A stretch of DNA of 64,000 bases, taken from positions 1 through 64,000 of the forward strand of contig JALHQW010000003.1 in NCBI GenBank assembly GCA_022841745.1. Reading direction: 5' to 3'. The stretch comes from Saprospiraceae bacterium. GTDB taxonomy: Bacteria > Bacteroidota > Bacteroidia > Chitinophagales > Saprospiraceae. Positions 6,016 to 54,187 of the stretch are shown here, one piece after another (positions within the stretch are counted from its first letter, which is position 1; every line of letters begins with the position of its first letter). Both the position numbers and the translations under genes were made by a program. The notes under the pieces are model-generated. The model saw only the letters and a list, made by a program, of their open reading frames with translations, did no database searches and was not told where the DNA came from.

Positions 6016-9000
6016 ATGACACGTCGCTCCATTGGAATCATTTTTGTCTCTTCTCTCTCCTTGCTCTGCCTACAACCACTTGGGTTGTTTTCCCAAAGCA
6101 TCACCTACCAGAACCCCGATGAGTTCTCCGCATGCGGCGAGGCCGAGTTCGGCATTACGGTGCAGAACACGGGCAGCACGACCATGAGCGGGGCCACTGT
6201 TACCATCAATTTCACCACTACCAACGGTACGGACTGCGGCATGGCCTACGTCCTAGGTTCGGTGTCGGCGCCTGTGACACAGGGGAACGTTGGCAACCCC
6301 GGTGCGCCACAGTTCAACCTGCCCAACTTGGCGGCGGGTGCTTCGCAAACATTTACCATAAAAGTCAAGGCCACTTGCGAAACGGCCACCTGCATTGACA
6401 ACGCTGCGGTGTTCGTGAACCAAATCACGGTGAACTGGAGCGGCGGCAATGCCAACGTCACCACCAACCCCTATGTGGTGGACCGGGCGCTGTTGCTCAT
6501 CACCAACGTGGCCAACACGGTCATGTCCGGCACGAGGGGCGATGTTTTGCAACGCAAACTGACCGTGCGAAACACAAGGCCAGGGGCCGTCAGCAGCTTC
6601 ACCATTCGGGACGACCACCAGTTGGGCATCGCTATCAGTTCGTTACAGGGCACCACCTTACAAAACACGTCTTCTGTCTTTGAACTGCTGCTCGGCCCTT
6701 CCGATTTTGCCAGTGCTGGCGATGGCGACGGGCTGTTCGAGTTCAACGAGACCATCGTCGTGACGGAGGACATTCTCATCCAAAGCTGCGGGGTGGACGA
6801 AAGCTCAGCCGTGTCCACCATCTCGGTTTCGTGGGGCTGCAATGGGGACGTCTGCCAAGAAGAGTCGGTGACTGCCGTGGTGGTGTTCGAGCCTTATGAC
6901 AAAGTGCCACAATTGTCGTTTGAACCCATCATCAACGTGCCCGATTGCCTCTGCGGCCCCGATGGGGTTCAGCAAGGCATGCGCATTACCAACAACGGCG
7001 AGGGCATAGCCAACAATATTGCTTTTGAGGTGCAACGCCTCAGCCTAAACCCAATTCAAGCTTTCGACACTACCTCCGTCAGGGTGGACAGTAGTGGGGT
7101 GGACATTGACTTTTTTTTAGGGGTATTGGGCGATATTGATTTTTCAGCCCCCTGTGAAGCACCATCAGACATGGTTCGGCAGTTTCGGGTATCGGGCCTG
7201 CAACTGGCCCCCAACGAGTCATTGACGGTTTATTGGGACAACTATTATTGCTCGCAGGGCTGCGCAAATCCAGCTACTGGCTGGGAATACAAGTACAGCT
7301 ATTTCAAAGAATGCCCACCCAGTATTTTCGTGCAGAACAGCCAGTTCATCCCGGTCATAAAAACATACAATGACCTTAGCGCCTATGCCACTTTGGATAC
7401 CAATATTATCTTTCAAGATGGCGATACGATTCATGGGATTTACCTCCTCAATGGCGATAAACTGACAACCAGCACGAGCACGCTAACGGTCGAAATGACC
7501 TTTGAATGCGGTTCGGAATGGATCGCCTCCAACCCCATGCTGCTCAACGACCAAGCGCCCTTGGACCTGGACTTCGTTCGTACCGACTCCTTTACTTTCG
7601 TCACGGCAGTTTATCAACTGCCATTGGATGTTGACACGGGCCGCATCGAGTTCGACCTGCTCTTTGAATGCGATTCGGTCTGCATCAACAGGCAGGAATG
7701 TGAATTCGATTTGGTTACTTCCTGTGAAGACAACTGTATTGCGCTGTCTGGTGGCGCAACGACTGCCCTGTTCAAGGCCACGATCAACCAATGCGGCCCC
7801 TACCCTCCCGAATGCAGCCCGCAGTCGTGTGCGGACTTAACGATTTTCTATAAATGCGATTTGGACTCCATCTGTGTGGATGCGCCGCCAGGCTACGTAC
7901 GCTATGATTTCGAGGCGCAGCGCAAAAACTACGGCCTACCCGACAACAACAACGACCAATTGCCCGATGCCCCAACTGGCCTGCCCGACATGAACCTCGT
8001 CAACCGCTATCGCTTAATTCCCGGCGATACCATTCAGGCGACCATCAGGGGCATGGTTGTCATGGACTCTGCCAACGTGAAACTGCCTTTTGGCTACCTG
8101 AACATCAATTTTCTTGGAAAGCCCAACATGGCGAAGGAGACGAGGGACTCCTTGTTGCGGCCCGACAGGCTATCGCAAGCGGGCATCTCGCTGCGCATTT
8201 TTGACAGCAGCGCAGGGATTTGGTACGATTGCCAGAACCCGCCATTTACCACCGAGTTCAACCTCCGTTATAAATACGATTTAACGCAGCTAAAAGGGCT
8301 TTGCGTGCCCGCCAATTTCGCCTTAGAACAGGGTGACTCCATTGTGTTCGTCGGCAATTACCGCATCGGGCACGCCCCCCGTGAAGAAACGGCCATCAAC
8401 GAGCCTGACCCCTTGCGAGGAGATATAGAAGTAAGCCCCGAACTGGTGATATTCAACGAGCATTATGAAAGCTACACCCTCATAAACTGCAATTGCCAAG
8501 TTGAAAACCTTCAACTCTCCTATTACAAGCTCACCATTAACCCCCAAACCTTTGCCTTGCCTCCCTGTTCTCCCTCCAATTATGGCCAGCCATTAAACAT
8601 CAAATTGGACTTGGTACAGGGCAATTTCTTCCCTTTTGAATACCGCAACCTGCTACAGTTGGACGACCTCTCGCTCACCTTTCCGCCCAGCGTGGAGCTT
8701 TGCACCACCAGGATAACCACTATCCGATGGCAAGGCGGCGGATCGTTCGTCTCGCAAATCTTTTTTGAGCCACCCTTGGTGAATGGCAGTTATTTCAACG
8801 ACCTCGAACCCTATCAGGTGCCACGCATGGACGAGGGCTTTGCGGCCAACCTTGATTTTATTTTCAAGAGTGCCTGCAACAACCGCTTCTCCATGCCCAT
8901 TTCCTATATTTCCACACTCGACTGGGCACCCGGCCTGCCCTACAACGGAATACCCGAAGCACTGAACCTGAACCACAACTCCTTGCGCCCGCTCATCGCC

Positions 9001-12000
9001 AACCTGAGCATACAGGCCCCCTTGTACGACCTCGTGACCTATACGAACCAAATGGAGTTCGACTTTTTGTTCAAAAACACCCCTACTATTGCAAGCAGTC
9101 AAGCCAGTGGGCCTGCCCCCAATACATGGCTCTACATTGCTTCGCCAACAGGCCTCGTCACCGATTTTCAACTTATTGACCAAACGACTGGCCAGCCCGT
9201 TCCGCAAATCAACGGCGTGTTCCAATTGGGCAACTTCCCGGTGAACCCCAACGGCCTGCCATTCCGCATCCTCGCTACCAACAACTCTTGCAAACGGGAG
9301 CAGCTCTTCGTGCGCTATGGCTGGAGTTGCGATCCCATTACGAGCACCGTACAAACGCCCTGCTACGAACAGGTGCAACCCCTCTTCATCACCTCGCCAC
9401 CTGGTGAAATTGACATGCTCGTGACCAGCCCAACAGGTTGCAGCCAGCTTTGCGACACCATTCCCTACCACAGCATCGAGGTGTTCAATGCGCAGTTTGG
9501 CAGCGTCTATAATTTGCGGGTGCAGGGTTTCGTGCCGCCCGGCATGAATGTGCTGCCCGGCTCTTGCGTCGTGGAGTACCCGACGGGCAGTGGCCTGCTC
9601 TACCCCATCGGCGACCCCACCGTGGTGAGCACGGGCGTGGTGGAGTGGAACCTCTCCATGCTCTTCGACAGCATCGCCAACGGGCTGCCAGGGGTTGGCG
9701 AAGCCCCCTATCACTCCCTGACACTCAGGTTCTTGGGCGAGTCCACTTGCGACTTCGTGGCCGAGGCATACACCCTCTTCATTGCGGCAGCCGACCAGAA
9801 CTGCGGCATACCCTCCAACACGATTGCGAAGCCCGGCGACCCCATCTGCATTGACGGGGTAACAGCGCCTTTCACCACCAATATCAGCGTGACGCCGACG
9901 CCCGGCTTCGGTTGCAACGACATTACCAAGTTCGAGGTCTCACTGGCTTCATCAATGGTGCTGCCGCAAGGGGCTTGTCTCATCGCCACCCTGCCACCGG
10001 GCATCACCTATGTGCCAGGCAGTTGCCAAAACCTTTGCGTCAGCGGCCTTAACTGTACGCCAACCATCAACGGCAGCCAAATAACCTGGCAGTTGCCAGT
10101 GGGTGTTTTGCCATCGCAACTCGTCTGTTTCACCTTCAACACACAGGGCTGGTCGGGCCTTGGCTGCGAGAACGGCGTGGTACTGTTCCGCACAGCCGTG
10201 GAGACGCAGGCGCTTTGCGCCCAGACGGGCCAGTTCTGCAGTACCAAGGTCAGCACGGGTTCGCTCATACTTCCCTACGACCCTCAGCGGCCCGCTTTCA
10301 ACCTCAGTGCGTTCAATATCACGGCATCGGCTTCGGGCGGGAACAACCTCGTCAACGCCACCGTGAAGCTGACGAACGATGGCGGCACGAGCCAGCCACC
10401 CACCATCATCGAGTTCTTTGCCGACACCAACGGCGACGGCGTGGGCGACCTATTGCTCGGCACGCATAACCATCCTTCGCCTATCGGCAATGGGCAGACC
10501 GTGACCATTTCGACCAGCTTCACGATGCCTTCGGCAATTAGCCTGTGCCAACTCCTGGCCGTGGTGGATGCTTCGCAACAATGCGCCTGCTCCGGCGATC
10601 TGGAACTGGTCAGCATGCCCATTGAATATAACACAGGCCTCAGTTGGACGGTCTGCTCCGGCATTGACGAAGTCATAGGCATACCCGCCCAGCCCGGCTT
10701 CAATTACCAGTGGTCGCCGGACAGCGATTGCCTCGCCGACGAACAGGCCGCCATGACCAATTTCAACTGTGAGAACAACGGCTTCGGACCCGTTACGACC
10801 GAGTTCACCATTGCGGAGAGCAACGGGGTTTGCGCCATTGACAACCTCGTGAGCGTGACCGTGCAGCCTGTGCCCGGCATCGCCTTCGCCGACTCGCCCA
10901 TTTGCCAGGGCGAGAGCGCAAACCTCGCCGCCACGGACGGGGCCAGCTACACCTGGCAAGGCCCCGGCATTGCGCAGCCCAACCTACAAATCATCACCGT
11001 CACGCCCGCCACTACCAGCCAGTACAGCGTGACCGTGCTGGACGCCTTCGGCTGCGCTGGCACCGAGTCGGTGACCGTGGTGGTAGCGCCTTTCCCCCAA
11101 GTGAATGCTGGCCCGGATGTCTCCTTCTGCCCCGACGACTCGCCGCAGTTGAACGCCAGTTTCGATGCAGACTGGGACTACCTCTGGTCGCCACAGACCG
11201 TGGGCAACCTGACGGCACTCAGCAATGCTGCCATCCATAACCCGCTTGTGCTGATCAACCAAGCTACGACCTTCACGCTGCAAGTGACGGATGAAAACGG
11301 CTGCTCCGCATCGGACGCCGTGACCGTCAGCTTTGCCGATGCGCCCATTTTGACCATGCCCTCCGATTTGGCAATATGCAACGGCGACAGCACCGTGCTG
11401 GTAGTGTCAAGCAACTCCACTGGCACCTTCGATTGGCTGCCCGACGATGGCGACTGCCCAGATTTTAGCAATTGCGCCAGCTACCTTGTTTCACCCAATA
11501 CCACGACTACCTACACCGTCGTGCAAACAGCCAGCAATGGCTGCACGGCCTCGGGCAGCGTAACGGTGACGGTAGCCAATGGCCTCATCGTGACCAATGG
11601 CCCACTCATCGAAATTTGCGAGGGGGAAACAGTGGTCATTAATGGCCAAACAGTCAGCGAGGCGGGCGTTTATTGCGATACGATAGCCATGATGGGCGGC
11701 TGCGACAGCGTGTATTGTGTGGAGGTGCTGCTAAAAGCGAAAGTGGACACCATCTATTTGGACACGGCGATTTGCCTTGGGGCCAGCGTTGAATTTGAAG
11801 GGGAAATCTATTCCGACGAAGGTGAATATTGCGTGACCCTGCCCGGCCAAAACAACTGCGACAGTGTGCGCTGCCTCGTGCTCCTAGTGGACGACCTTGA
11901 CATAAAACTGACGATTGATTCGATTATTTGCCCCGGTGACAGCGTACTGTTCGAGGGACAGTTTTATGCTGCGGAGGGGGAGTATTGCAACACCTATTCC

Positions 12001-12588
12001 ACCCCCGAAGGCTGCGACAGCCTTAGTTGCCTCAACCTAAGTTGGCATCCTTTGCCCCCAGTGGAAATCGTCGGGACGGATACCGTAAGCAATGGCGATA
12101 CACTGGTGCTGGGGCAAATCCCATCGGGGCCGTTTGGCAGTATTTTCTGGTACCAAAACGACTCCCTGCTCGCCGACTGCACGGGGGAATTGTTTTGTGA
12201 GACTTTCCCCACCGACAGCCTCACCACCTTCCTGGTGCAAATTACCGACCCCGTGACAGGCTGCCCCGGCTCGGATACCTTGCAGGTCATCGTGATACCC
12301 AATTGCAACCCCGAAAAAGTGGAAGTGCCCAATGCTTTTTCTCCGAACAACGACGATAAAAACGACGTGTTCGACATCGTAGGCCCCGGCGCAGAGGCCA
12401 CCCTCAATATGCGCATCTGGAACCGCTGGGGCCAAAAGGTCTATGACGGCCCCGGCCCCTGGGATGGCAAACAGAACGGCAAGGAAGCTCCCAGCGATGT
12501 GTATATCTACCGCATCGTAGTCGGTTGCGCCGTGGCGGTGGATGCGGTGGACAGGGAGGTGAAGGGGGACGTGACGCTGCTGAGGTGA
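6016..12588 (+). CDS. Giant secreted protein with T9SS type B (gliding-motility-associated) C-terminal domain
   Basis: 2190 residues with an N-terminal signal peptide (residues ~1-28). The first ~1400 residues carry many DUF11/CARDB-like beta-sandwich repeats rich in paired Cys. From ~1600 there are PKD/Ig-like units with the pattern P-G-x-x-Y-x-W-S/Q-P. Three to four ~55-residue units of the type ICPGDSVLFEGQ...GCDSL follow at ~1860-2030. The end (VPNAFSPNNDDKNDVFDI, NRWGQKVYDG, WDGK) is the type B sorting domain that targets proteins through the type IX secretion system. It is probably a cell-surface adhesin or filament. The locus is clearly GC-richer than the block that follows at 12.6-17.5 kb. 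It lacks an adjacent PorP/SprF gene. Confidence 0.9.
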   Translation: MTRRSIGIIFVSSLSLLCLQPLGLFSQSITYQNPDEFSACGEAEFGITVQNTGSTTMSGATVTINFTTTNGTDCGMAYVLGSVSAPVTQGNVGNPGAPQFNLPNLAAGASQTFTIKVKATCETATCIDNAAVFVNQITVNWSGGNANVTTNPYVVDRALLLITNVANTVMSGTRGDVLQRKLTVRNTRPGAVSSFTIRDDHQLGIAISSLQGTTLQNTSSVFELLLGPSDFASAGDGDGLFEFNETIVVTEDILIQSCGVDESSAVSTISVSWGCNGDVCQEESVTAVVVFEPYDKVPQLSFEPIINVPDCLCGPDGVQQGMRITNNGEGIANNIAFEVQRLSLNPIQAFDTTSVRVDSSGVDIDFFLGVLGDIDFSAPCEAPSDMVRQFRVSGLQLAPNESLTVYWDNYYCSQGCANPATGWEYKYSYFKECPPSIFVQNSQFIPVIKTYNDLSAYATLDTNIIFQDGDTIHGIYLLNGDKLTTSTSTLTVEMTFECGSEWIASNPMLLNDQAPLDLDFVRTDSFTFVTAVYQLPLDVDTGRIEFDLLFECDSVCINRQECEFDLVTSCEDNCIALSGGATTALFKATINQCGPYPPECSPQSCADLTIFYKCDLDSICVDAPPGYVRYDFEAQRKNYGLPDNNNDQLPDAPTGLPDMNLVNRYRLIPGDTIQATIRGMVVMDSANVKLPFGYLNINFLGKPNMAKETRDSLLRPDRLSQAGISLRIFDSSAGIWYDCQNPPFTTEFNLRYKYDLTQLKGLCVPANFALEQGDSIVFVGNYRIGHAPREETAINEPDPLRGDIEVSPELVIFNEHYESYTLINCNCQVENLQLSYYKLTINPQTFALPPCSPSNYGQPLNIKLDLVQGNFFPFEYRNLLQLDDLSLTFPPSVELCTTRITTIRWQGGGSFVSQIFFEPPLVNGSYFNDLEPYQVPRMDEGFAANLDFIFKSACNNRFSMPISYISTLDWAPGLPYNGIPEALNLNHNSLRPLIANLSIQAPLYDLVTYTNQMEFDFLFKNTPTIASSQASGPAPNTWLYIASPTGLVTDFQLIDQTTGQPVPQINGVFQLGNFPVNPNGLPFRILATNNSCKREQLFVRYGWSCDPITSTVQTPCYEQVQPLFITSPPGEIDMLVTSPTGCSQLCDTIPYHSIEVFNAQFGSVYNLRVQGFVPPGMNVLPGSCVVEYPTGSGLLYPIGDPTVVSTGVVEWNLSMLFDSIANGLPGVGEAPYHSLTLRFLGESTCDFVAEAYTLFIAAADQNCGIPSNTIAKPGDPICIDGVTAPFTTNISVTPTPGFGCNDITKFEVSLASSMVLPQGACLIATLPPGITYVPGSCQNLCVSGLNCTPTINGSQITWQLPVGVLPSQLVCFTFNTQGWSGLGCENGVVLFRTAVETQALCAQTGQFCSTKVSTGSLILPYDPQRPAFNLSAFNITASASGGNNLVNATVKLTNDGGTSQPPTIIEFFADTNGDGVGDLLLGTHNHPSPIGNGQTVTISTSFTMPSAISLCQLLAVVDASQQCACSGDLELVSMPIEYNTGLSWTVCSGIDEVIGIPAQPGFNYQWSPDSDCLADEQAAMTNFNCENNGFGPVTTEFTIAESNGVCAIDNLVSVTVQPVPGIAFADSPICQGESANLAATDGASYTWQGPGIAQPNLQIITVTPATTSQYSVTVLDAFGCAGTESVTVVVAPFPQVNAGPDVSFCPDDSPQLNASFDADWDYLWSPQTVGNLTALSNAAIHNPLVLINQATTFTLQVTDENGCSASDAVTVSFADAPILTMPSDLAICNGDSTVLVVSSNSTGTFDWLPDDGDCPDFSNCASYLVSPNTTTTYTVVQTASNGCTASGSVTVTVANGLIVTNGPLIEICEGETVVINGQTVSEAGVYCDTIAMMGGCDSVYCVEVLLKAKVDTIYLDTAICLGASVEFEGEIYSDEGEYCVTLPGQNNCDSVRCLVLLVDDLDIKLTIDSIICPGDSVLFEGQFYAAEGEYCNTYSTPEGCDSLSCLNLSWHPLPPVEIVGTDTVSNGDTLVLGQIPSGPFGSIFWYQNDSLLADCTGELFCETFPTDSLTTFLVQITDPVTGCPGSDTLQVIVIPNCNPEKVEVPNAFSPNNDDKNDVFDIVGPGAEATLNMRIWNRWGQKVYDGPGPWDGKQNGKEAPSDVYIYRIVVGCAVAVDAVDREVKGDVTLLR

Positions 12589-12872
12589 TAGATGTCCACA
12601 TGCCTCCAAGGCTTGGCAGAATGCGCTATGGGCTTGGCCATTAGTGCTGCCTCAACTGCACAAGTCACCAATGAATCAACACCAATGTTGAACTTGAAGT
12701 ACAAGCGTAAACGCTCGATTTTCGCAAGCTGCCGGACTATTAGGGTATCGAAAGCATCAAACCCAAATATTCCCTGTGCTGGATAAGGGAAAAACTTAGA
12801 TTTGCTTTGAAGGATGAACCTGAGACAGGTTCTGCTTCATCTTTCTTATTTTTTTACCAAAAACTGTTTGTC
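12589..12872. other. 284-bp spacer between T9SS cargo genes
   Basis: No ORF, hairpin or recognisable promoter stood out. Base composition falls sharply from the preceding GC-rich gene to the AT-richer block that continues to about 17.48 kb. Confidence 0.5.
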
Positions 12873-15800
12873 ATGAAAAAACTTAAAATTCAAAATTTCT
12901 CTTTAGCCTCTGTAACAACATTCTATCTTCTACTGATAATATCCCCAGTCAACCTACAATCGCAAGGGATGATATCCCCTATTATTTATGGCCTGTACAA
13001 TGAAGTTGCTGGCAATTTCTATGTGAGAACTTTTATCCATTACATCGATGGCCCTCTTAATACGACAGCAGGTATTAATTTGAGTTCAAGAACACAGGCA
13101 ATCATTCAACATCTTAATGACATCTACAACGTTCATGGGATATTTTTTATTCAATACAATCAGGAGAATTACTGTGAGGGAATCGCAGTAATAGGGGAAG
13201 ACTTTGAAGACTGGGAAGCCTTCAATGATTCTAACTTAAAAACCGATGCACTAAACATCGTGGACAATGGTGGCAATCAAAATTCTTCAGGAGCAGCTTT
13301 TAGCACGCCTAATAATAAGGTGGAACTTTGGGGCAATGCAGCCCTTGATGAAGTTATCATTCATGAAGTTGGGCATTGTATTGGCCTGCTGCACACTTTC
13401 GGATTCTTAAATGGCGGAAACACTATGCCTGTGCCATGTAATGATATCCTTGGCGGCCAAAACTGCTATATTTATTGCGACCTAACTTGTGATATCCCGT
13501 TTGTAGATGTGTCTGGCTCAATCAATGCACCAAACTGCGCCCACCCAGATTATCCACAAGAAGTTATAAGAAACTACATGAGTTATATCGATCAGGGTAG
13601 TTGCCGTGATAGGTTCTCAGAAGAGCAAATCAAGCGAATGAGATACCACTTAAAAAACCATTCCTTTTTGGATGCCATGGCAATGTCTTCAACCCTTCCA
13701 TTAAATTCCATAACATCACCCTCTGGCGACATCATCGTGGAGTCCGGCACGCACTCCATTACTACGCCCATCCAGATGGTACCGGGAGCCAAGATTATCG
13801 TTATGCCCGGGGAAAGGTTGAACATCTATTCAACAATCACGGCCGCCTGTGATATGTGGGAAGGCATCGTCGTGGAGGGCAACCCCGTGGGGAGCAACCT
13901 CGGTGGGCCGGGCACCACGCCCGGCAGGGTGGCCCTCTACGACTCCGGTGTGTTGGAGCACGCCAAACTCGGGATACGGCTCGGCTCGATCAACGCCAAC
14001 GGGCAACTGGCCACCTCCGGGGGCGTTTGTAGCCCGTGCCGGGGTGGTTTCGTGAACTGCTCCACCTCCATCAGGTTTGAGCCGAACCCCGTCAACAGCC
14101 CACCAGCCACTCAAATTGTCAGCGCAGTTTTCTATACCGACGACCAGTACAGAGGCGGAAGCGGGCAGGTGACCTATATTGATGCCCCACAGATAACCGG
14201 CCTAAAGGTCAGGAGCAACTGGTTCAGGGACAACCGCACCACCTGCCCGGGGCCTGCCTCCAAGGCCATCGGCATAGCGGCATACGGTACCAGCATCATT
14301 GCCACCAGCAACGATTTCTTCAACCTCGGCAAGGCCATCGTAGTTGACCAGCCCTTGGTAGGGTCTTTCCAGGCCAACAACAACAGCTTCACCCGCTGTT
14401 TCTCCGGCATCGAGTCCAACAAGGTCAGCAACTTCTCCATCCGTGACAACAGCTTCCAAATCGCCGCACCGCCCAACTGTAGTGGGGAGAGCGTGGGCGT
14501 CACCCTTTCTGGAAATTCAGCGGGTTTCTCGTTTACGAAAAATACTTTTACGGGGCTGGACAACGAGGCAGTGGGGACGGTGGTGCGAGCAACAGGTACT
14601 GCCAACAAAATCATCTTAGATAATGACTATATTAACTTAAAAGTAGGAAATAGAGCCGAATCAGAAAATGGCAATGCAAATTCAGGACTGACTTATAATT
14701 GCAATACACATACTAATAGTGTGGGCGATTACCTCGTGCTTGGAAATGTTCGAGTGGAACAAAAGGCAATTAATGGACAGGGCTTTGATGCACCAACAGG
14801 TAACACTTTTTCAGGCTTGCCCGACCCTAATAGCAGTTTTAAGAGTACCGGAGGACAAACTATCCAATATTTTTTTACGGGCAACGCCAATTCAAGCAAT
14901 CCACAGCATTTCACCTATGGCGGAACAGCTTTTCAAAACGTAAATGGCAATGAATTGACAATTGCCAATGCAGCCTGCACATCTGTAACACCATGCAGCC
15001 CACCTTGCGACGAAACCACAAATCAACTGTTAAAGCAAACATTTTATGGAAATCGTCAGGAAAGGAATACCAAAAAGGCTGCCTTGGCAACGATGACTAA
15101 CCAACAACAAATTGAAGCGGAAAAGAAAGCCATCCAAAACTTGGAATCTCTTATGGAGCAATACGCTTCGCTGGTTGTCCAAAATTATGCTTTGGATACG
15201 ATGGGATTGGAAATTGAGACGGACTCTATACTGACATGGCTGGAACACTCCGAATCCTATTCAAGTGATTTGGAGCGCCTCAATCATTATTTTTTCAATA
15301 GTGACCTCGATGAATTTGATGATTTATGGGAAGAGGTACCGACTAAACATGGCCTATCAGGAGATAATCTTGGAGAGTTCAACGAATTGGAGTTGGTTTA
15401 TGAATTGGTTCGGCCTACTGTCGAATTGGAGGAAGGTAATTTATCCAACCTATCTGAACCTGTGATAGATTCTCTTATGTTCTGGAAAAGTTGGTGCTCA
15501 GAACCTGGATTCCTCGTAAAATCGCTTTTGAGGTGGAACGGAATCGAGACAAGCCAAGATTGCGAATCCCCTCAAAGGGTTGCTGAAAGACAATCTATTA
15601 AAGAAGGTAAATCGCTATTTACTTCAAGGAATTTAGATTTACTTGTTTATCCCAACCCAGCAAATGATCACTTGATTGTTTCTTTCAAGACCACCTCCCA
15701 GATTGATTTCAGCATCGCTTTATGCAATTTGCGCGGCCAAGTCTGCTTCTATCAAAACTACTCATCTCTTTCTGGAAATGTGAAACTGCCAACCAAAGAT

Positions 15801-15881
15801 ATTCATGAAGGGCTTTATTTTTTGAAAGTTCAAATGAAAGAAGGCCATTCATATCAAGCTAAAGTTATCATTGAGCATTAA
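12873..15881 (+). CDS. Secreted M43-like zinc metalloprotease with beta-helix region and T9SS type A sorting domain
   Basis: 1002 residues from the ATG at 12873 (MKKLKIQNFSLASV), which gives a proper signal peptide; an ATG 66 bp upstream would place charged residues before it. At about residue 163 lies HEVGHCIGLLHTF (HExxHxxGxxH zinc site), followed by the Met-turn NYMSY at about 235. These fit the pappalysin/cytophagalysin M43 family. Residues ~300-640 look like right-handed beta-helix repeats (short G/N/V strands). Residues ~700-860 are helical and charged. The C-terminus (VYPNPANDHLIV...KVIIEH) is a type A T9SS sorting domain. The middle segment (about 13.83-14.60 kb) is much GC-richer than both ends, which suggests a mosaic gene. 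Confidence 0.85.
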   Translation: MKKLKIQNFSLASVTTFYLLLIISPVNLQSQGMISPIIYGLYNEVAGNFYVRTFIHYIDGPLNTTAGINLSSRTQAIIQHLNDIYNVHGIFFIQYNQENYCEGIAVIGEDFEDWEAFNDSNLKTDALNIVDNGGNQNSSGAAFSTPNNKVELWGNAALDEVIIHEVGHCIGLLHTFGFLNGGNTMPVPCNDILGGQNCYIYCDLTCDIPFVDVSGSINAPNCAHPDYPQEVIRNYMSYIDQGSCRDRFSEEQIKRMRYHLKNHSFLDAMAMSSTLPLNSITSPSGDIIVESGTHSITTPIQMVPGAKIIVMPGERLNIYSTITAACDMWEGIVVEGNPVGSNLGGPGTTPGRVALYDSGVLEHAKLGIRLGSINANGQLATSGGVCSPCRGGFVNCSTSIRFEPNPVNSPPATQIVSAVFYTDDQYRGGSGQVTYIDAPQITGLKVRSNWFRDNRTTCPGPASKAIGIAAYGTSIIATSNDFFNLGKAIVVDQPLVGSFQANNNSFTRCFSGIESNKVSNFSIRDNSFQIAAPPNCSGESVGVTLSGNSAGFSFTKNTFTGLDNEAVGTVVRATGTANKIILDNDYINLKVGNRAESENGNANSGLTYNCNTHTNSVGDYLVLGNVRVEQKAINGQGFDAPTGNTFSGLPDPNSSFKSTGGQTIQYFFTGNANSSNPQHFTYGGTAFQNVNGNELTIANAACTSVTPCSPPCDETTNQLLKQTFYGNRQERNTKKAALATMTNQQQIEAEKKAIQNLESLMEQYASLVVQNYALDTMGLEIETDSILTWLEHSESYSSDLERLNHYFFNSDLDEFDDLWEEVPTKHGLSGDNLGEFNELELVYELVRPTVELEEGNLSNLSEPVIDSLMFWKSWCSEPGFLVKSLLRWNGIETSQDCESPQRVAERQSIKEGKSLFTSRNLDLLVYPNPANDHLIVSFKTTSQIDFSIALCNLRGQVCFYQNYSSLSGNVKLPTKDIHEGLYFLKVQMKEGHSYQAKVIIEH

Positions 15882-15893
15882 AACTTAAAACCG

Positions 15894-15934
15894 TTCAGAG
15901 TGATTGGCATGTGCCAAGCACTCTGAATTTTTCT
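15894..15934 (+). terminator. Rho-independent terminator
   Basis: TTCAGAGTG (15894-15902) pairs with CACTCTGAA (15919-15927), with an inner GGCATGTGCC palindrome, followed by a run of T. It lies 13 bp past the stop of the M43-like protease gene and just before the next cargo gene, so that gene probably has its own promoter. Confidence 0.8.
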
Positions 15935-15941
15935 TACTGTC

Positions 15942-17498
15942 ATGAAGAATTATTATTTCCTATTAATTTTTATACTTGCACAAGTTCTATTAACTGCCCA
16001 AACACCAGGCTTCAACAAACGGTTTGCTATCGAGTACCCAAACACCAGAATTTTTAAAATCTTAATAGAGAACGATACCATTGTTGCTTTGGGCGATGGG
16101 TATTTGGACTCCATGAGCTTTAACCGAGGTATCATATTGATGAAGTTTGACACGCTTGGAAATCTTCTTCAATCAAACCACATATTAGACAATATTTTTG
16201 GCCCTTATCCTGTGCCACATAGATGGGGGTCTCTGTTAAAGGCAAATGATAACGGCTATATTATGACTATTACATCAGCCGCTTACGAATTCCCGGTAAT
16301 TCTCAAAACAGATAAAGACTTCAATCTTGAATTTGTTGAAAAGTACGAAGACTTAGAAGATTTTAATTATCAGCTATGTGATATGATCCCCATTCATGAC
16401 GGTTACTTTCTTTATGGGGGGGTTGGAAGGTCAAATGGACTTAATGACGGTTATTTGCGAAGAATAGATTTAGACGGCAATTCAATTTGGGTGAAATATT
16501 ATGATGATTTCAATACATCAGAGTCAATCAACGATTTGTTTAAGATAAATGATACTTTGTTTGCATTGTCAATGGTAAAAACTATTGATACTAACCCTTT
16601 CGATGAAAGCAATATTTCGGTCATAAAATACATTAACGGAAATGGTGAAGTACTTAGGGAATGGGAATCAGAACCAGAACCGGAAATTGGTTACTTGCGT
16701 GAAATACTGTACGCTGACGGTGAACGAATATTGGTTTACGGCTTGAACGTAGTAGAAGAAGAGTCGGTTCCACCATTCCAGTACAAGATTGTAAAATCTA
16801 CTTTTTCAATGCTTGACGAAAATTTCAATTCCGAATGGGTTAATAAATATGGGCTAAAATCTGATTTGTCGAATGAAATCATGTTCTATGATATAAAAGA
16901 AACCATGGACGGTAATTTTATTTGTGCTGGAATGACTTATACGGAAGCGAACACAGATTTTAGCCAAGTCTATAATCGGGGTTGGCTTATGAAACTTTCT
17001 ATGAATGGCGATAGCATCTGGGGCAGACAAGATACGTCGGACATCTTGCCTATTAGTGGTTATAACCGCCAAAGATTAGGTGGGGTTGGCGTCCTCTCCT
17101 CTGGCAGCATCATAGCAGGTGGCTATGTCACAAGAGGCGAAGACAACAGCAGTTATTGCTGGCTCATCAAGACTACGAACGACGGCTGTATAGATACCCT
17201 GTACTGTGGGCTGGTGAGTAGTGCGGAGGAAGTGCCGCAAACAGCACTGGGAAAGGTAAAAATCTATCCCAACCCGGCCAGCGAGGTCGTCCATATCCAA
17301 GTCCCGGATATTATTAGCAGTATTCCAATTCCAATAAATGTTTATGATTTATCAGGCAGACTACAAAAGGCTGTCTTTATTGACGTTGACGGGGATTTTA
17401 TCCTTCAAGTGCACGATTTGCCGTCTGGCATATATTTCGTATCGATAAAATTGCCTGATGGGAGGGTGCTTTATGAAAAGCTAAGCATAGTTCGATAG
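15942..17498 (+). CDS. Secreted protein with T9SS type A sorting domain, unknown repeat domain
   Basis: 518 residues with a clear signal peptide (MKNYYFLLIFILAQVLLTAQ). Residues ~25-410 show propeller-like repeats with GD-x-x-W/I and L-K-T/F-D patterns (for example KANDNGYIMT, KINDTLFALS, GGVGVLSSGSIIAGG), similar to secreted beta-propeller cargo. After GCIDTLYC the type A sorting domain starts at about residue 440 (VKIYPNPASEVVHI ... LPSGIYFVSIKLPDGR ... KLSIVR). The protein is complete, since the sorting domain ends normally. The gene is AT-rich compared with 17.5-18.7 kb, and it abuts a headless fragment of another cargo protein. Confidence 0.85.
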   Translation: MKNYYFLLIFILAQVLLTAQTPGFNKRFAIEYPNTRIFKILIENDTIVALGDGYLDSMSFNRGIILMKFDTLGNLLQSNHILDNIFGPYPVPHRWGSLLKANDNGYIMTITSAAYEFPVILKTDKDFNLEFVEKYEDLEDFNYQLCDMIPIHDGYFLYGGVGRSNGLNDGYLRRIDLDGNSIWVKYYDDFNTSESINDLFKINDTLFALSMVKTIDTNPFDESNISVIKYINGNGEVLREWESEPEPEIGYLREILYADGERILVYGLNVVEEESVPPFQYKIVKSTFSMLDENFNSEWVNKYGLKSDLSNEIMFYDIKETMDGNFICAGMTYTEANTDFSQVYNRGWLMKLSMNGDSIWGRQDTSDILPISGYNRQRLGGVGVLSSGSIIAGGYVTRGEDNSSYCWLIKTTNDGCIDTLYCGLVSSAEEVPQTALGKVKIYPNPASEVVHIQVPDIISSIPIPINVYDLSGRLQKAVFIDVDGDFILQVHDLPSGIYFVSIKLPDGRVLYEKLSIVR

Positions 17499-17554
17499 CT
17501 GCCAACCTGACGCTGTTCGGCTGCCCCGGCGATTCGGTATGGTATGATTCTCAA

Positions 17555-18703
17555 ATGGTGGCCGTGGGTGCAATACAGGATTTCGTTTTTCAAAACCAGT
17601 TGGGCTGCGACTCCTTGGTCAATTTGACGGTTGCTCCATATCCTGTTGATTTTCAATCGGTTGACCTAATTTCCTGTCCCGGCCAACCAGCCTTATTCGA
17701 TGGCCAAGCCCTCATGCCGGGCGACACGATGAGCTTTGTTTACCAAAACCAACACGGCTGCGACTCAACCGTCACGGTCACGGTCGGGCTGTTCCAAGCG
17801 GCATCGCCCACGGTCATGGAGCTATTCGTTTGTACTGGCGACTCGCTGGTTTACAACGGCGAGACACTATGGCCGGGCGACGTGCGGAATTATGTATTCC
17901 AGGATGAAAACGGCTGTGATTCGTTGGTGAACCTGACCGTGTTGGCGCATCCTGTCATTGATTTCAAGGCGTTCACGGAGGCGGTTTGCCCCGGCAGTTT
18001 CGATGGCGTTATCGAGTTGGTGGCTATGGTGGGTGACGGGCCTTTTTCCACCAGTTTGGATGGGAGCAGTTTCAGTGATGAAACCCGTTTTGAAGCATTG
18101 CCGCAAGGCAACCACCAAATCACCCTAAAGGATGCACATGGCTGCATTGCTTCGCAACTCATTGAAATAGAAGCACTTGATTCACTTGTCTTAGAGGTTG
18201 AGGACTATGTTTTGCCCTGCGAGGAACCTAGCATCACGCTTCGGCCAAAGGTGCTTTCCCATGCAGGCCCCTTGCATTGGGCATGGCCCGACGGCTCCAC
18301 CTACGATTGGTTCAGGGCAACGCAGGGCGGGCTTTACCTCGTCAGCGTTTCGGATGATTGTACGACAAAGGAGCAGCCAATCACGGTCCATTGGGGCGAC
18401 GACACCCCTGCCTCCCCCGTCTATGTGCCCAATGCTTTTTCGCCCAATGGCGATGGGGTGAACGATGAATTCATGGTCTATCCCGCACAGGGTGTCGAAT
18501 TTTTGGCCTTCGAACTTCTCGTCTTCGACCGCTGGGGCAATTTGCTGTTCAGCAGCCAAGACCACAGAAGTGGATGGGATGGTTTTTACCGGGAAAAACG
18601 CATGGATACAGGTTTGGTGGTTTGGTACCTGAACGCCAAAATCACCAGTTGCGGACGGGAACTGGAACTGTTCCAAGAAGGTGGGGTGACTGTGATGAGA
18701 TGA
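17555..18703 (+). CDS. Headless T9SS type B cargo fragment (likely pseudogene of a larger adhesin)
   Basis: The first ATG gives 382 residues, but the same frame is open back to 17477, and its codons there (LTLFGCPGDSVWYDSQ, 17507-17554) are clearly part of the first repeat. There is no signal peptide. Visible are three ~52-residue CPGDS...GCDSLV repeats, a SprB-type repeat (CPGSFDGVIELVAMVGDGPF), an Ig-like unit and a complete type B sorting domain (VPNAFSPNGDGVNDEF, FDRWGNLLFSSQD, GWDGF). The same repeat style closes the 2190-residue protein at 6016. It begins within a few bases of the stop of the AT-rich upstream gene in a different frame, so it looks like the 3' remnant of a giant gene cut by replacement of its 5' part. 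Without a leader it should not be exported. Confidence 0.75.
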   Translation: MVAVGAIQDFVFQNQLGCDSLVNLTVAPYPVDFQSVDLISCPGQPALFDGQALMPGDTMSFVYQNQHGCDSTVTVTVGLFQAASPTVMELFVCTGDSLVYNGETLWPGDVRNYVFQDENGCDSLVNLTVLAHPVIDFKAFTEAVCPGSFDGVIELVAMVGDGPFSTSLDGSSFSDETRFEALPQGNHQITLKDAHGCIASQLIEIEALDSLVLEVEDYVLPCEEPSITLRPKVLSHAGPLHWAWPDGSTYDWFRATQGGLYLVSVSDDCTTKEQPITVHWGDDTPASPVYVPNAFSPNGDGVNDEFMVYPAQGVEFLAFELLVFDRWGNLLFSSQDHRSGWDGFYREKRMDTGLVVWYLNAKITSCGRELELFQEGGVTVMR

Positions 18704-18709
18704 TTCACG

Positions 18710-18836
18710 ATTGCGGATTAGCGGATTGCGGATTGCGGAACTTGTCCCGACACCTCGGGATTGACCGGAGCAAATCTGCCTTCTCGGGACATTGCCTAAA
18801 AAATTTGGAGCTACGAAGCCCGCAATCCGCAATCCG
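18710..18836. repeat. Heptad-array element with 28-bp core, copy 1
   Basis: 18710-18738 is ATTGCGG, ATTAGCGG, ATTGCGG, ATTGCGG. The shared core follows (18736-18763; hairpin CCCGA-cacc-TCGGG). After ~55 bp the reverse complement array CCGCAATCCGCAATCCG closes the element (to 18836), so the whole can fold. It starts six bases past the stop of the plus-strand fragment and reaches to within 16 bp of the TonB-receptor stop on the minus strand, so it separates two convergent genes. Confidence 0.85.
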
Positions 18837-18851
18837 AATTCTGAAATCGAA

Positions 18852-21257
18852 TCAATTCTGCTGCGCCCTCCTAATCACTTCCTCCGCACTGCTGCTGCGG
18901 CTACCCTTGCTCTTCATGTGCTGGTTGCCAAACTTGTAACTCACCTGCATATTGTAAACAGGAGCGTCCCAGCGGCTGACGATGTTGAAGTCCATATTGG
19001 CGTACTGTACGCTGCCGTGGAAGAAGCGGCGTAGTACGTTGTCAATGCCAACGCTGACCTTCAACTTGTCGTTGAGGAACTTGCGGGCCACGCCCACGTC
19101 AACGCCGTAGAGCCATTCTGCGTTGATGATTCCCTGTAGGCCGCCACTGTTCCAAAAGCCAGAAACCTCCATTTCCACCTTCTTGGGCAGGGTGATATTG
19201 GCGCTCAGGAAGGCCGTGTAGTCCCATTTGCTCCGGCTGAACTGCTGGTCGAGGTAGGGCGAGTCGTATTTATTGTGGTTGGCAATGAAGCCGCCGTAGC
19301 CGCTCGTCTTGGGGATGAAGTCGAGGGGGAAAAACAGGCTAATGTTCAGCACCTTGAAAGCGTCGAGGTTCACATTGGTCAGGAAGGTCTGACCGCTGGC
19401 GTCGTCCTGCTCGGTTACCTCCACCATGGCGTCGTTGGTATGCTTGTACTCGATATTGAAGAACGGTTGGTTCTCGAACATCAGGCTGAACTTGGTACTG
19501 TGCGTGAGCGAGGGGCGCAGCCGGGGGTTGCCCAATTCATAAGTATAGGGGTCGAGAAAATAAATGAAGGGGTTCAGGTCGCCGTAGTGCGGTCGGTCAA
19601 TGCGGTAGCTGTAGGCAATGGCGGCACCCAGTTTCTTGGTCAGTTCTCGGCTAAGGCTGGCACTGGGGAAAAGCTTGGCAATACGGCGAGACTGTGTGGA
19701 ATCCAGCGTGACCGAGTAGCCCTCGCTTTTGCTGTCCTCGTAGCGGAGGCCCGCCGTGCCCGACCATTTGCCCGCTTTCCAGTCCATTTTTGAGTACCCC
19801 GCCCAGATGGTTTCCTTGAACAGGAAATGGTTGCTCTGCAAGGAGTCTGGCTGGAAAACGCCGTTGGCATCCTCCCGGAAGGAGCGCAGGTCGTTGTCGA
19901 GGTCGGCGAGGCTGTAGCGGCCACCCATTTGCAGTTTGATGTCCTTGGAAATAGGCAGGGTATAATCGAGGCTGACCGTGTAAATCTCCGATTCGCCGGG
20001 CTGGTCGTAGCGCTGGTCGGGGGTAAATTCCCCGAAATTGGCCTCCTCTGGCATGAGCGTATTGCCGCCATTGTTGCCGATGCGCACGGCATTGAAGTCG
20101 AGGTCGAGCTTTTGTCCTTGCGTGTCAATCTCGAAGCTGTAATAGGGGTTAAGGGTGAGCATGTTCCAGTCCCTTGTTATCCGGTTGTCGGTCAGGATTT
20201 TCAGGTCGCCCGTGTTGGCGTCGGCGAAGTCAATAAGGGTGGTGTTGGTGATGGAATAGTCCCGCTTGCTGCCCACCCAACTGCTGTTGAAGCCGAGGCG
20301 GTGGCGCTCGGTCACGTCCCAGTCGAGGGTGAGGTTGGAGCGGAGGAAGTCGCTGATGTTCGGGTTTTCGGATACCTGGCTGTAAACATCGCTGCCCACC
20401 GAGCGCACCACGTCCAAGCCCTCGTACCAGGAGTTGCGACCTGTGCTTGCCCCGGCGCTGATGTTGAGGTTCCCTTGGTAATGGCTCAGGCTGAAACCCG
20501 TTCGGTAGCGCCAGTACTCGCCCTTGCTCACCCCGGCGTTCACGCTGCCGTTGGTGCCATAGAGGCTGTTTTTCTTCAAAATAATGTTGATGATAGGCCC
20601 CGTACCCTCCGCCTCGAACTCGGCCCCTGGCTGGTGGATGACCTCCACCCGCTTGATGTTGTCGCCGGGGATGTCCTTCAGCAGGGCGTCCACGTCCATG
20701 TATTTTGTTGTTTTGCCGTTGAGGAGGATGGTCACGTTGCTCTGGCCGGCCATCCGCAGCTTGTCGCCCACCACGATGACGCCGGGCACTTTTTTCATCA
20801 CTTCCAGCAGGTTGGAGTTCAGGCTGGTGAGGTTGTTCTCTACGTTCACGATGAGGCGGTCGGCCCGCTGTTCGAGCATGGGGGCCTTGGCAGTGACGGT
20901 CACGGTAGAGAGGCTCTGTGCTTCTTCATCGAGTTGGATGTCGAACTGCTTGCGGTTGTCCCTAGGGAAGCTGAGGTCGGCTATTTTTTCATCCAAAAAG
21001 CCGAGCATGCTCACTTCGAGGAAGTATTGCCCATCAGGGATGTCCTTGAGGCTGAACTTGCCGTTGGCATCGGAAGTTTCGCCCTTGAGGATGGTGCTGT
21101 CCGCCTGCTTGTACAGAGCGATGGTGGCGAAAAAAACGCCATCGCCCTTGGCGTTGGTGATGGTACCGGAGATTTGGTGCTGGGCAACTGCTTTTTGCGA
21201 AACAAACAGTAATGCCAAGGCAAGGCCAAGGATTGGCCAAGAAAGTCGGGTCTTCAT
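18852..21257 (-). CDS. TonB-dependent outer-membrane receptor with carboxypeptidase-like N-terminal domain
   Basis: 801 residues with a signal peptide (to the Ala-Gln at about residue 26). Residues ~28-110 are the carboxypeptidase-regulatory-like domain (ISGTITNAKGDGVFFATIAL). The plug is at ~120-225 (LLEVMKKVPGVIVVGDKLRM ... RVEVIHQPGAEFEAEGTGPI). The remainder is a 22-strand barrel of the outer-membrane beta-barrel family type, with aromatic-rich strands. It lacks a SusD partner and any adjacent binding protein, so the substrate is unknown; siderophore, peptide or sugar import are all possible. It is a single gene whose stop lies just before the heptad element at 18710-18836. Confidence 0.93.
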   Translation of the reverse strand: MKTRLSWPILGLALALLFVSQKAVAQHQISGTITNAKGDGVFFATIALYKQADSTILKGETSDANGKFSLKDIPDGQYFLEVSMLGFLDEKIADLSFPRDNRKQFDIQLDEEAQSLSTVTVTAKAPMLEQRADRLIVNVENNLTSLNSNLLEVMKKVPGVIVVGDKLRMAGQSNVTILLNGKTTKYMDVDALLKDIPGDNIKRVEVIHQPGAEFEAEGTGPIINIILKKNSLYGTNGSVNAGVSKGEYWRYRTGFSLSHYQGNLNISAGASTGRNSWYEGLDVVRSVGSDVYSQVSENPNISDFLRSNLTLDWDVTERHRLGFNSSWVGSKRDYSITNTTLIDFADANTGDLKILTDNRITRDWNMLTLNPYYSFEIDTQGQKLDLDFNAVRIGNNGGNTLMPEEANFGEFTPDQRYDQPGESEIYTVSLDYTLPISKDIKLQMGGRYSLADLDNDLRSFREDANGVFQPDSLQSNHFLFKETIWAGYSKMDWKAGKWSGTAGLRYEDSKSEGYSVTLDSTQSRRIAKLFPSASLSRELTKKLGAAIAYSYRIDRPHYGDLNPFIYFLDPYTYELGNPRLRPSLTHSTKFSLMFENQPFFNIEYKHTNDAMVEVTEQDDASGQTFLTNVNLDAFKVLNISLFFPLDFIPKTSGYGGFIANHNKYDSPYLDQQFSRSKWDYTAFLSANITLPKKVEMEVSGFWNSGGLQGIINAEWLYGVDVGVARKFLNDKLKVSVGIDNVLRRFFHGSVQYANMDFNIVSRWDAPVYNMQVSYKFGNQHMKSKGSRSSSAEEVIRRAQQN

Positions 21258-22337: not shown

Positions 22338-22997
22338 ATGAAAAAAGTAAGCACTGCACTGTTCGCAAGCCTTTTCGCACTTGCCATCGGCATTACTTCC
22401 GTTCATGCACAGACACTAACAACCGCACCAACTATGACAGCCACCTACACTCCCCCCGTAGCACCAAACCCCGCCAACCCGAAAGTGTTCTTCGACATCA
22501 ACATCGGCGACCAACCCGCTGGCCGCATCGTTTTTGAACTGTTCAAGGATGCTGCCCCGCTGACCGCCGAGAACTTCCGTGCCCTCTGCACGGGCGAGAA
22601 GGGCGTTGGCACCAGCGGCAAGCCCCTCCACTACAAGGGCAGCGGCTTCCACCGCATCATTCCGGCCTTCATGTGCCAGGGCGGTGACTTTACCAACGGC
22701 AACGGCACGGGCGGCGAGAGCATCTACGGCCCCAAGTTCGCCGACGAGACCTTCAGCGGCAAAGCGGGCGTACACGCCGGCCCCGGCATTTTGAGCATGG
22801 CCAACGCCGGCCCCAACACCAACGGCTCGCAGTTCTTCATCTGCACCGTGGAGACGACTTGGCTCAATGGCCGCCACGTGGTCTTCGGCCAAGTCGTAGA
22901 AGGCATGGACGTGGTTCGGAAAATGGAGGCCGTCGGCAGCCAGAGCGGCAGGACTTCTGCTGTGGTGACGGTTGCGGATAGTGGGGAGTTGAAGTAA
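22338..22997 (+). CDS. Secreted peptidyl-prolyl cis-trans isomerase, cyclophilin type
   Basis: 219 residues. A signal peptide ([20 protein letters not shown], cleaved after HAQ) is followed by a Thr/Pro-rich linker (residues 26-50) and a full cyclophilin domain: [50 protein letters not shown] (catalytic Arg in FHRI), [20 protein letters not shown] and the conserved Trp of [12 protein letters not shown]. It should speed proline isomerisation during folding of exported proteins in the periplasm. It is a single gene with a candidate promoter at 22145-22179 and a good terminator at 23018. Confidence 0.95.
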
Positions 22998-24079: not shown

Positions 24080-24133
24080 CAATCCCGAGGTGTCGGGACA
24101 AGTTCCGAAATCCGCAATCCCAAATCCGCAATC
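24080..24133. repeat. Heptad-array element with 28-bp core, copy 2
   Basis: 24080-24107 is the exact reverse complement of the core at 18736-18763. It is followed by AAATCCGCAATCCC and AAATCCGCAATC, i.e. GATTGCGG words when read on the minus strand. On that strand the array starts exactly at the TGA stop of the gene ending at 24132. No coding frame uses it here. Confidence 0.85.
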
Positions 24134-52156: not shown

Positions 52157-54187
52157 TCAATACGAAACAAGTTTCCTCAACTGCCCCCTAAACCTTTCCA
52201 CCGGCAAATAATTCTGCTCCAATGGAATGGCAAACGGCACCGGCGTGTCCAAGCCCGCTGCCCGTAGCACTGGGCCGTCGAGGTGTTCGAACAGGTGCTC
52301 CGAAATCCAGGCAGACAGCTCGCTGCCGACGCCGCCCGTGAGCGTGTCCTCGTGCAGGATAACGACCCTGTTCGTCTTTTTCACTGTAGCCGTAATCGCC
52401 TCGTAATCAAGCGGTAAGAGCGTACGAAGGTCAATGATGTCAGCATCAATGCCTTCTTCTTCGCAGACCTTCAACGCCCAATGGACGCCCATGCCGTAGG
52501 TGATGACGCTCAGCGCCGAGCCTTCCCTTGCCACCCTCGCCTTGCCGATTTCGACAGTATAGTAGCCATCTGGGATTTCTTCTGAAATGGCCCGGTATAG
52601 TGCCTTGTGCTCGAAATACATGACCGGGTTCGGGTCCTCAAAAGCGGCCAGCAGTAGGCCCTTGGCGTCGTAAGGTGTGGATGGAATCACCACTTTCAAG
52701 CCCGGCGTGTGTACGAACCAAGCCTCGTTCGTTTGCGAGTGGAAAGGGCCCGCCCCTACCCCACCGCCGCTCGGCATCCGCACCACCACGTCGGCATTCA
52801 CGCCCCAGCGGTAGTGGATTTTGGCGAGGTTGTTCACGATTTGGTTGAAGGCGCAGGTCACAAAGTCGGCGAACTGCATCTCAACCATGCTCTTGAAGCC
52901 TTTTAAACTAAGGCCCAGCGCCGCACCCACGATGGCGCTCTCGCAAATCGGCGTGTTGCGCACCCGCTCCTTGCCGAACTCCTCCATGAAGCCTTGCGTG
53001 ATTTTGAAAACGCCGCCGTAATCAGCGATGTCTTGGCCCATCAACACAAGGTTGGCATGGCGTTGCATGGCAATGCGGAGGCCGTCGGATATTGCGTCAA
53101 TGTAACGACGTTCGGATTTCGGCCCAGTGGCGGACTGCGGACTGTGGACTGCGGACTGCGGAACTTGTCCCGACACCTCGGGATTGGGAGCGTACACGTC
53201 GCCCAATTCTTCCTCCAGATTCGGTTCGATTTCGGGTTCGGAAACAGTGATTTTCCAAGCCGCCTCTATCTCGTCCTTTATCTCTTTGCGGTACTTCGCA
53301 ATGGTCTTCTCCTCCAAAACACCCTCTTCGAGCAGGTAGCGTTCGTAGTTGTCGAGGGGGTCTTTCAGCGCCCAAGTTTCGAGGAGTTCCTTGGGCACGT
53401 ACTTCACGCCGCTCGCCTCTTCGTGGCCACGCATTCTGAAAGTTTTACACTCAACCAGCACAGGGTGCGGCTTTTTCCGCATCTCGACGGCCAATTTGTC
53501 AATCGTGTTATAAACTTCGAGGATGTTGTTGCCATCCAAGATGACCGATTTCATACCATAGCCAACGCCTTTGTCTGCAATGTTTTCGCAGCGATACTGC
53601 TCGCTGGTGGTGGTGCTGAGGCCATAGCCGTTGTTTTCAACGACAAAAATCACGGGCAGGTCCCAGACGGCGGCCACATTCAGTGCTTCGTGGAAATCGC
53701 CTTCGCTGGTGCCACCCTCGCCACTGAATGCCAGCGCGACCCGGCCTTCGCCTTTTAGTTTATGTGCCAATGCCGCCCCATCCGCTAATGCCAACTGAGG
53801 GCCGAGGTGGCTTATCATACCCACGATGCCGTAGTCCAGTGTACCGAAGTGGAAGCTGCGCTCTCGGCCTTTTGAGAATCCGCTTTTCTTGCCTTGCCAC
53901 TGTGAAAACAGGGTTGCCAAAGGCACGTCACGCACCGTGAAAACGCCGAGGTTGCGGTGCAGGGTGAACACCAGTTCGTCGGGCAGCAGGGCACTTGTTA
54001 CGCCCACGGCGATGGCCTCCTGCCCGATGCCACTAAACCATTTTGACACTTGTCCCTGGCGCAGGAGGATGAGCATTTTCTCCTCAATCATGCGGGGTTT
54101 CAGCAAGCGGCGGTAGAGCATGAGCAAGGTGTCTTTACTCAGTTTTCCTTTGTTGAACTTTATTGGCTGGGCAGTTGCTGTGGGCAT
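52157..54187 (-). CDS. Fused alpha/beta branched-chain 2-oxoacid dehydrogenase E1
   Basis: 676 residues. The N-terminal half (~1-330) is the alpha subunit with the thiamine-diphosphate motif FSGEGGTSEGDFHEALNVAA and ENNGYGLST. The C-terminal half (~355-676) is the beta subunit (MGQDIADYGGVFKITQGFME, ESAIVGAALGLSLKG, ILHEDTLTGGVGSE). It decarboxylates branched-chain 2-oxoacids and acylates the E2 lipoyl group, feeding CoA thioesters for fatty-acid primers. Residues ~334-352 (NPEVSGQVPQSAVHSPQSA) are encoded by repeat copy 3 and lie in the linker, where the frame stays open. E2 and E3 are not adjacent. A promoter box lies at 54216-54223. Confidence 0.95.
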   Translation of the reverse strand: MPTATAQPIKFNKGKLSKDTLLMLYRRLLKPRMIEEKMLILLRQGQVSKWFSGIGQEAIAVGVTSALLPDELVFTLHRNLGVFTVRDVPLATLFSQWQGKKSGFSKGRERSFHFGTLDYGIVGMISHLGPQLALADGAALAHKLKGEGRVALAFSGEGGTSEGDFHEALNVAAVWDLPVIFVVENNGYGLSTTTSEQYRCENIADKGVGYGMKSVILDGNNILEVYNTIDKLAVEMRKKPHPVLVECKTFRMRGHEEASGVKYVPKELLETWALKDPLDNYERYLLEEGVLEEKTIAKYRKEIKDEIEAAWKITVSEPEIEPNLEEELGDVYAPNPEVSGQVPQSAVHSPQSATGPKSERRYIDAISDGLRIAMQRHANLVLMGQDIADYGGVFKITQGFMEEFGKERVRNTPICESAIVGAALGLSLKGFKSMVEMQFADFVTCAFNQIVNNLAKIHYRWGVNADVVVRMPSGGGVGAGPFHSQTNEAWFVHTPGLKVVIPSTPYDAKGLLLAAFEDPNPVMYFEHKALYRAISEEIPDGYYTVEIGKARVAREGSALSVITYGMGVHWALKVCEEEGIDADIIDLRTLLPLDYEAITATVKKTNRVVILHEDTLTGGVGSELSAWISEHLFEHLDGPVLRAAGLDTPVPFAIPLEQNYLPVERFRGQLRKLVSY
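53131..53188. repeat. Heptad-array element with 28-bp core, copy 3, inside the E1 gene
   Basis: Four heptads CGGACTG, CGGACTG, TGGACTG, CGGACTG (53131-53158) are followed by the core identical to copies 1 and 2. Length and phase keep the E1 frame open. On the coding strand this gives about 19 Ser/Gln/Pro-rich residues in the alpha-beta linker. Confidence 0.9.

Follow-up and report, generated by a model that had tools for sequence, protein, structure and literature searches.

The first 64,000 nucleotides of contig JALHQW010000003.1 from a Saprospiraceae bacterium (assembly GCA_022841745.1), referred to here as the window, contain a reading frame that ends in a T9SS type B sorting domain and lies flush behind the stop codon of a complete type A gene, and the question raised by this arrangement is whether the frame encodes an exported protein or is what is left of a much larger gene. 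An initial annotation took it for the surviving 3′ end of a giant adhesin gene, the 5′ part having given way to an AT-richer block (about 12.6–17.48 kb). Comparison with draft genomes of 39 relatives and with the window's own genome (G000) upholds this view: with a probability of roughly 0.87, the segment 17498–18703 is the remnant of a giant T9SS type B adhesin gene, termed X, whose front has been lost, with a pair of genes (C and D) now in its place and most likely with no exported product. The reading is carried by an intact X in the closest relative, G011 (JADLHE, Saprospiraceae MAG SJ47), and by the longer frames that hold X in four relatives.

The frame that holds the tail opens at 17477, after a TGA at 17474–17476, and runs for 408 codons to the stop codon at 18701–18703, with its first in-frame ATG at 17555; the tail itself (17498–18703, forward strand) comprises 401 codons and aligns over approximately 400 residues, at 56–70% identity, with the C-termini of X proteins. 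It contains three degenerate GCDS repeats of about 52 residues (17582–17940, forward strand; direct-repeat family D1), the 50-nt cores of which, at 17582–17631, 17735–17784, and 17891–17940, are spaced by 153 and 156 nt and show 62–70% identity to the reference copy. Three repeats had been annotated and three are present, but the formula CPGDS...GCDSLV given for them is not exact: CPGDS occurs in the first only, GCDSLV in the first and third, and GCDSTV in the second. The type B sorting domain (CHU_C/TIGR04131; 18425–18637, forward strand, residues 310–380 counted from 17498) is real and is matched by both PF13585 CHU_C (E = 1e-13, 51.7 bits, cut-off 27) and TIGR04131 (E = 7e-13, 48.5 bits, cut-off 35). 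In this domain, which scores above the curated cut-offs, and in the repeats that precede it, the tail resembles T9SS type B cargo such as the SprB-type giant adhesins, and its C-terminus is of the type B kind.

Full-length type B relatives additionally carry a leader (called by eye) and PKD/Ig-like modules, whereas the tail has no leader and is missing about 1,980 front residues. Type B matches of some kind were found in all 40 genomes (the 39 relatives and the window's own), and orthologues of the tail itself in G011 (70% identity), G001 (63%), G004 (62%), and G008 (56%), which hold it in open frames of 1469 (to a contig edge), 2447, 2246, and 2287 codons, respectively, in contrast to the roughly 400 codons to which the window's copy is cut. 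In G001, G004, and G008, X forms one frame each of 2,227–2,386 codons, and the full gene is put at ~2,250–2,390 codons; G001 also has a second X-tail copy (54% identity) in a frame of 1954 codons, and in G004 the first ~190 X residues lie in another frame (contig C24, ~156264–156830), which may reflect a frameshift or a sequencing error. The X protein of G001 comprises 2,386 residues, and its sorting domain is preceded by PKD, PKD-like, and SdrD-B-like modules; the window tail corresponds to residues ~1980–2386 of this protein, the last ~400 codons or about the final sixth, so that the front ~1,980 codons, including the start, are absent at this locus.

With the 1,980 front residues of G001 X as the query, no close copy of the front was found in the window's own genome, in which the best match is a separate complete gene of 2448 codons at 39% identity. 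Relocation of the front was rejected on the same grounds, as the own-genome matches consist of this paralogue and of short repeat or domain matches, and the front is also absent beside a polysaccharide-cluster gene on contig C27. Recurrence of this fragment across several species with an identical start, which would have spoken for a real gene, was likewise looked for, and no headless orthologue of the tail was found among the 39 relatives. Two short frames, G002:C56 (445 codons) and G011:C290 (442 codons), were discarded as candidates: they are 34–37% paralogues and uninformative, the first lying on a contig of 3.2 kb and the second 135 nt from the start of its contig.

The tail lies among conserved neighbours. 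To the left, beyond C and D, lies gene B, which encodes a complete giant type B protein of 2190 aa (6016–12588, forward strand); to the right lie an outer-membrane beta-barrel receptor gene (CarboxypepD_reg and OMP_b-brl_3; 18852–21257, reverse strand) and a gene for a cyclophilin-type peptidyl-prolyl isomerase (22338–22997, forward strand). The receptor and cyclophilin genes are also found 3′ of X in G001, G004, and G011. In G011, contig C53 carries a B orthologue (64%; 11081–17650) followed 230 bp on, at 17880, by the start of a leader-bearing X, whose frame matches X to residue ~874 and runs off the contig end, and contig C85 takes up X at residue 863 and carries the remainder of the gene, followed by a DUF5615 gene on the reverse strand, the receptor, and the cyclophilin. 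As X is thus split over two contigs, its continuity in G011 is deduced from the contig ends, which overlap inside X with 39 of 41 nt matching. In G012, B is directly followed by the cyclophilin gene, and the orders in G011 and G012 together identify B on the left and the receptor and cyclophilin on the right as old neighbours, B and the receptor being the ancestral neighbours of X. The window has the same flanks as G011, with C and D sitting in place of the X front. The initial annotation had predicted that a related strain would carry the full-length gene without the AT-rich block, and this is the state of G011, in which X lies between B and the receptor with a contig break inside it; C and D find only sorting-domain-level matches in this draft genome, which is 85% complete. 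Receptor orthologues of at least 59% identity are present in six (G000, G001, G004, G006, G010, and G011) of the 20 genomes searched, and X or its tail adjoins the receptor in four of the six; G010 has another gene there, and in the G006 draft (80% complete) the contig ends within 18 bp of the receptor gene.

The block that now separates B from the tail extends from the B stop to the D stop (12589–17498). Gene C (12873–15881, forward strand; the open-frame list starts it at TTG 12807) encodes a type A cargo protein of 1002 aa with weak similarity to M43 peptidases (21.8 bits, below the Pfam cut-off of 23), and gene D (15942–17498, forward strand) is complete, encoding 518 aa with a leader, called by eye, and a type A sorting domain. 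The pair is resident in this genome: a second C–D copy lies at G000:C3:78–83 kb (50% and 53% identity), and C and D are also adjacent in G006, G008, and G007. In G006 the order is C–D–B, with the pair directly upstream of B, whereas in the window it lies downstream of B. In the C and D trees, the latter drawn without the G009 row, which was in the wrong frame, the window copies group nearest to G006, weakly (supports 56 and 86), and this grouping, together with the G006 order, raises the possibility that C and D already lay close to B before the loss of X.

The block is AT-richer than its surroundings, as initially annotated (GC 0.432 against 0.510 for the window), although unevenly so, with values of ~0.58–0.60 in the middle of C. 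As a sign of foreign DNA, however, this composition does not hold, since low GC is native to the C–D pair: C and D have GC contents of 0.454 and 0.392 in the window, where D is the AT-richest copy, and of 0.445–0.479 and 0.441–0.463 in the four other copies measured, so that all five share the trait. In codon use, the window copies of C and D most resemble each other and their own paralogues, and the tail is equally near to C. A foreign origin of the block was rejected on this evidence. The C-terminal part of D (17007–17296) is far more alike between copies than the rest of the gene, at 77% nucleotide identity to G006 (G006:C104) and 70% to the own paralogue (G000:C3:78–79 kb), and less AT-rich, a pattern that could point to gene conversion between copies.

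Both edges of the block lie at, or within a few bases of, the stop codons of B and D. At the right junction (17496–17512, forward strand), the native end of D meets internal codons of X: D ends where its homologues end, including that of G006, with its stop codon at 17496–17498, and X homology begins at 17498–17504 in protein comparisons and at 17506–17512 by blastn, 0–14 nt past the D stop codon, so that the tail indeed abuts the type A gene as first described. Such stop-flush edges would be expected if useless DNA had been trimmed back as far as the living genes, but this fits badly with a very recent event. At the left edge, directly after the B stop, the block holds a probable DUF5615 (PF18480) scrap, similar to the first part of that gene, of ~23 codons with one stop (12585–12653, forward strand; 65–70% identity over 23 residues, and 33 nt at 91% to G011). 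In G001 and G011 a DUF5615 (PIN-like) gene separates X from the receptor, in opposite orientations (L023 13620–13985; L026 4429–4797), and G004 has none there; it appears to be a small gene that shifts position within the locus. An 18-nt inverted repeat (94%; 17217–17234 and 18876–18893) flanks the remnant, and was rejected as the cause of an inversion: both arms code for SSAEEV, in D and in the receptor, and the repeat is probably a coincidence. A dispersed 55–70 bp repeat rich in GATTGCGGATTGCGG occurs at 18707–18769, ~24080–24133, and 53133–53186 of the window, as well as in G006:C392 (91% over 71 nt), with 32–33-nt matches in G011:C85, G008:C78, and G008:C18.

T9SS cargo is described in PMC10202324 as requiring a Sec leader for the first step of export and a C-terminal domain for the second. 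The tail retains the second element only. At none of 17 candidate starts (ATG, GTG, TTG, CTG, ATT, or ATA; 17477–17900) is there a leader-like hydrophobic core, the best nine-residue hydropathy mean being 1.87 compared with 2.23–3.01 for the leaders of B, D, and the X proteins of G001 and G011; by this measure, hydropathy being the only one applied, the tail lacks the N-terminal Sec signal peptide of type B cargo. A search of 17300–18900 with the sigma-70 consensus, from which Bacteroidota promoters differ, found no promoter-like site, where 1.4 were expected by chance. The claim that the frame has no start or leader is thus borne out, and with the sorting signal kept but no start region, Sec leader, or promoter-like site found, the tail most likely gives rise to no exported protein and, judged from its sequence, is most likely a silent remnant.

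These observations also weigh on the proposal that the tail is a living short type B gene, read from approximately 17555 or coupled to D, and kept by selection. The state of the tail gives this proposal some substance: there are no stop codons within its 401 codons, and its rate of change is not accelerated. At sites where the outgroups G001 and G004 agree, the window tail has 23 private amino-acid changes and the intact X of G011 has 34, and with other outgroup pairs the counts are 23 against 26 and 14 against 24; the same test on B, used as a control, gave 137 against 138, while that on the receptor (71 against 15) was dropped because it is distorted by a G011 receptor unusually close to that of G004. 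Between the window and G011, dN and dS (the latter near saturation) are 0.213 and 1.15 for the tail, 0.276 and 1.29 for B, and 0.179 and 1.02 for the receptor, so that the dN/dS of the tail is like that of its intact neighbours. However, none of the candidate starts supplies a leader, the scan revealed no promoter-like site, the 17555 ATG falls within the first repeat, and none of the 39 relatives has a headless orthologue, which together make a living short gene very unlikely.

The lack of decay implies that the loss is recent or that selection still acts, and a recent loss would need less than continuing selection does. In 400 runs of a neutral simulation, the probability of finding no stop codon was 0.125 at 0.05 substitutions per site and 0.02 at 0.1, and the synonymous substitutions on the branch since the split would amount to about 0.58 per site, half the pairwise dS. 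If the tail is neutral, the truncation must be young. The tail has neither the frame-breaking changes nor the relaxed constraint of a pseudogene, which is compatible with a recent loss, and the loss of X is accordingly placed, probably, late on this branch.

Since only a single assembly, a draft of 178 contigs, shows the new junction, unrelated contigs might have been joined at 17.5 kb. The segment 17300–17720 is not a repeat, however, its other own-genome matches being limited to 75% over 110 nt and 86% over 35 nt, and both sides of the join are ancestral neighbours, B on the left and the X tail and receptor on the right, an arrangement that a random join would not reproduce; an assembly chimera is therefore very unlikely.

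The orders in G004, G001, and G008 at first suggested that a large inversion had severed X, one breakpoint lying between X and the polysaccharide-cluster gene and the other between B and an FAD-oxidase gene. In these genomes X adjoins the cluster gene (G001, G004, and G008) and B adjoins the FAD oxidase (G004 and G008); in the window genome, the FAD oxidase instead adjoins the cluster gene and B lies close to the X tail. The adjacency of the FAD oxidase and the cluster gene is, however, shared by G012 and, by flanking sequence at a contig end, by G006, and G011 has B next to an X with an intact front. The order in G001, G004, and G008 is thus taken as derived, through a later inversion in that clade, and an inversion as the origin of the tail is highly improbable. 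A tree of three cluster genes, unrooted and with node supports of 74, 82, and 88, served as the stand-in for a species tree.

It is conceivable, though highly doubtful, that the tail is kept as a start-less donor cassette, in which the GCDS repeats and the type B domain recombine onto resident giant type B genes; surface variation could then draw on headless tails as a silent reservoir. Another type B tail with no leader visible by eye (276 aa, CHU_C) is found at G000:C3:173864–174694 on the reverse strand (L151 5865–6695). Seven short type B frames were also read, these being part of a larger type B set in the own genome: five have a leader by eye (C96:8783, C19, C1, C38, and C58), C102 begins with an ambiguous hydrophobic stretch, and C96 12417–14281 looks frameshifted. 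As most of these frames have leaders, true headless tails are rare among those read, and headless tails as a common class were rejected, with only C3:173864–174694 clearly leaderless among the eight own-genome frames. That tail adjoins a PorP/SprF gene (PF11751) and lies ~175 nt from one end of a long CRISPR array, which begins at L151 6871 (G000:C3 ~174870), has the repeat GTTTCAATTCCATCCGGTGCGGTTAAAAG in 79 copies within the 6-kb stretch examined, and is followed by Cas1, Cas3, Cas5, and Cas7 genes, of which Cas1, Cas5, and Cas7 fit type I-B models.

That D and the tail form one product through a −1 frameshift in 17477–17498, its type A sorting domain followed by one of type B, is barely credible, for although the tail frame lies at −1 to D and is open from 17477, before the D stop, the overlap holds no codon pair fitting X XXY YYZ, and the D homologues in G000:C3b, G006, G007, and G008 stop without such a tail.

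Under the favoured reading, that of a truncated X, the ancestor of the window genome and G011 would have carried B, a full-length X, the receptor, and the cyclophilin gene in this order. In the window lineage, the region after B and approximately the first 1,980 codons of X would have been lost, and a resident two-gene unit, C (M43-like type A cargo) and D (type A cargo), now lies there, ending flush at the D stop; the loss of X and the arrival of C–D appear to have been one event. Truncated pseudogenes of large surface-protein genes occur in bacteria, and the tail is like them in being a 3′ remnant beside a replacing block with no start region, but unlike them in that its frame is still free of internal stops and frameshifts. 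The tail is thus best taken as a young, inert pseudogene, the most likely reading, and the case is one of ordinary gene loss, documented by the intact X in G011.

The locus thus provides a clean example, within the Saprospiraceae, of the loss of a giant T9SS adhesin gene and the reuse of its site by other secreted-protein genes, and both its ancestral and its derived state are available for comparison. It carries two warnings for the reading of such genomes: a frame without a start should not be listed among T9SS substrates, however perfect its sorting domain, and an AT-rich pair of T9SS genes need not be foreign.
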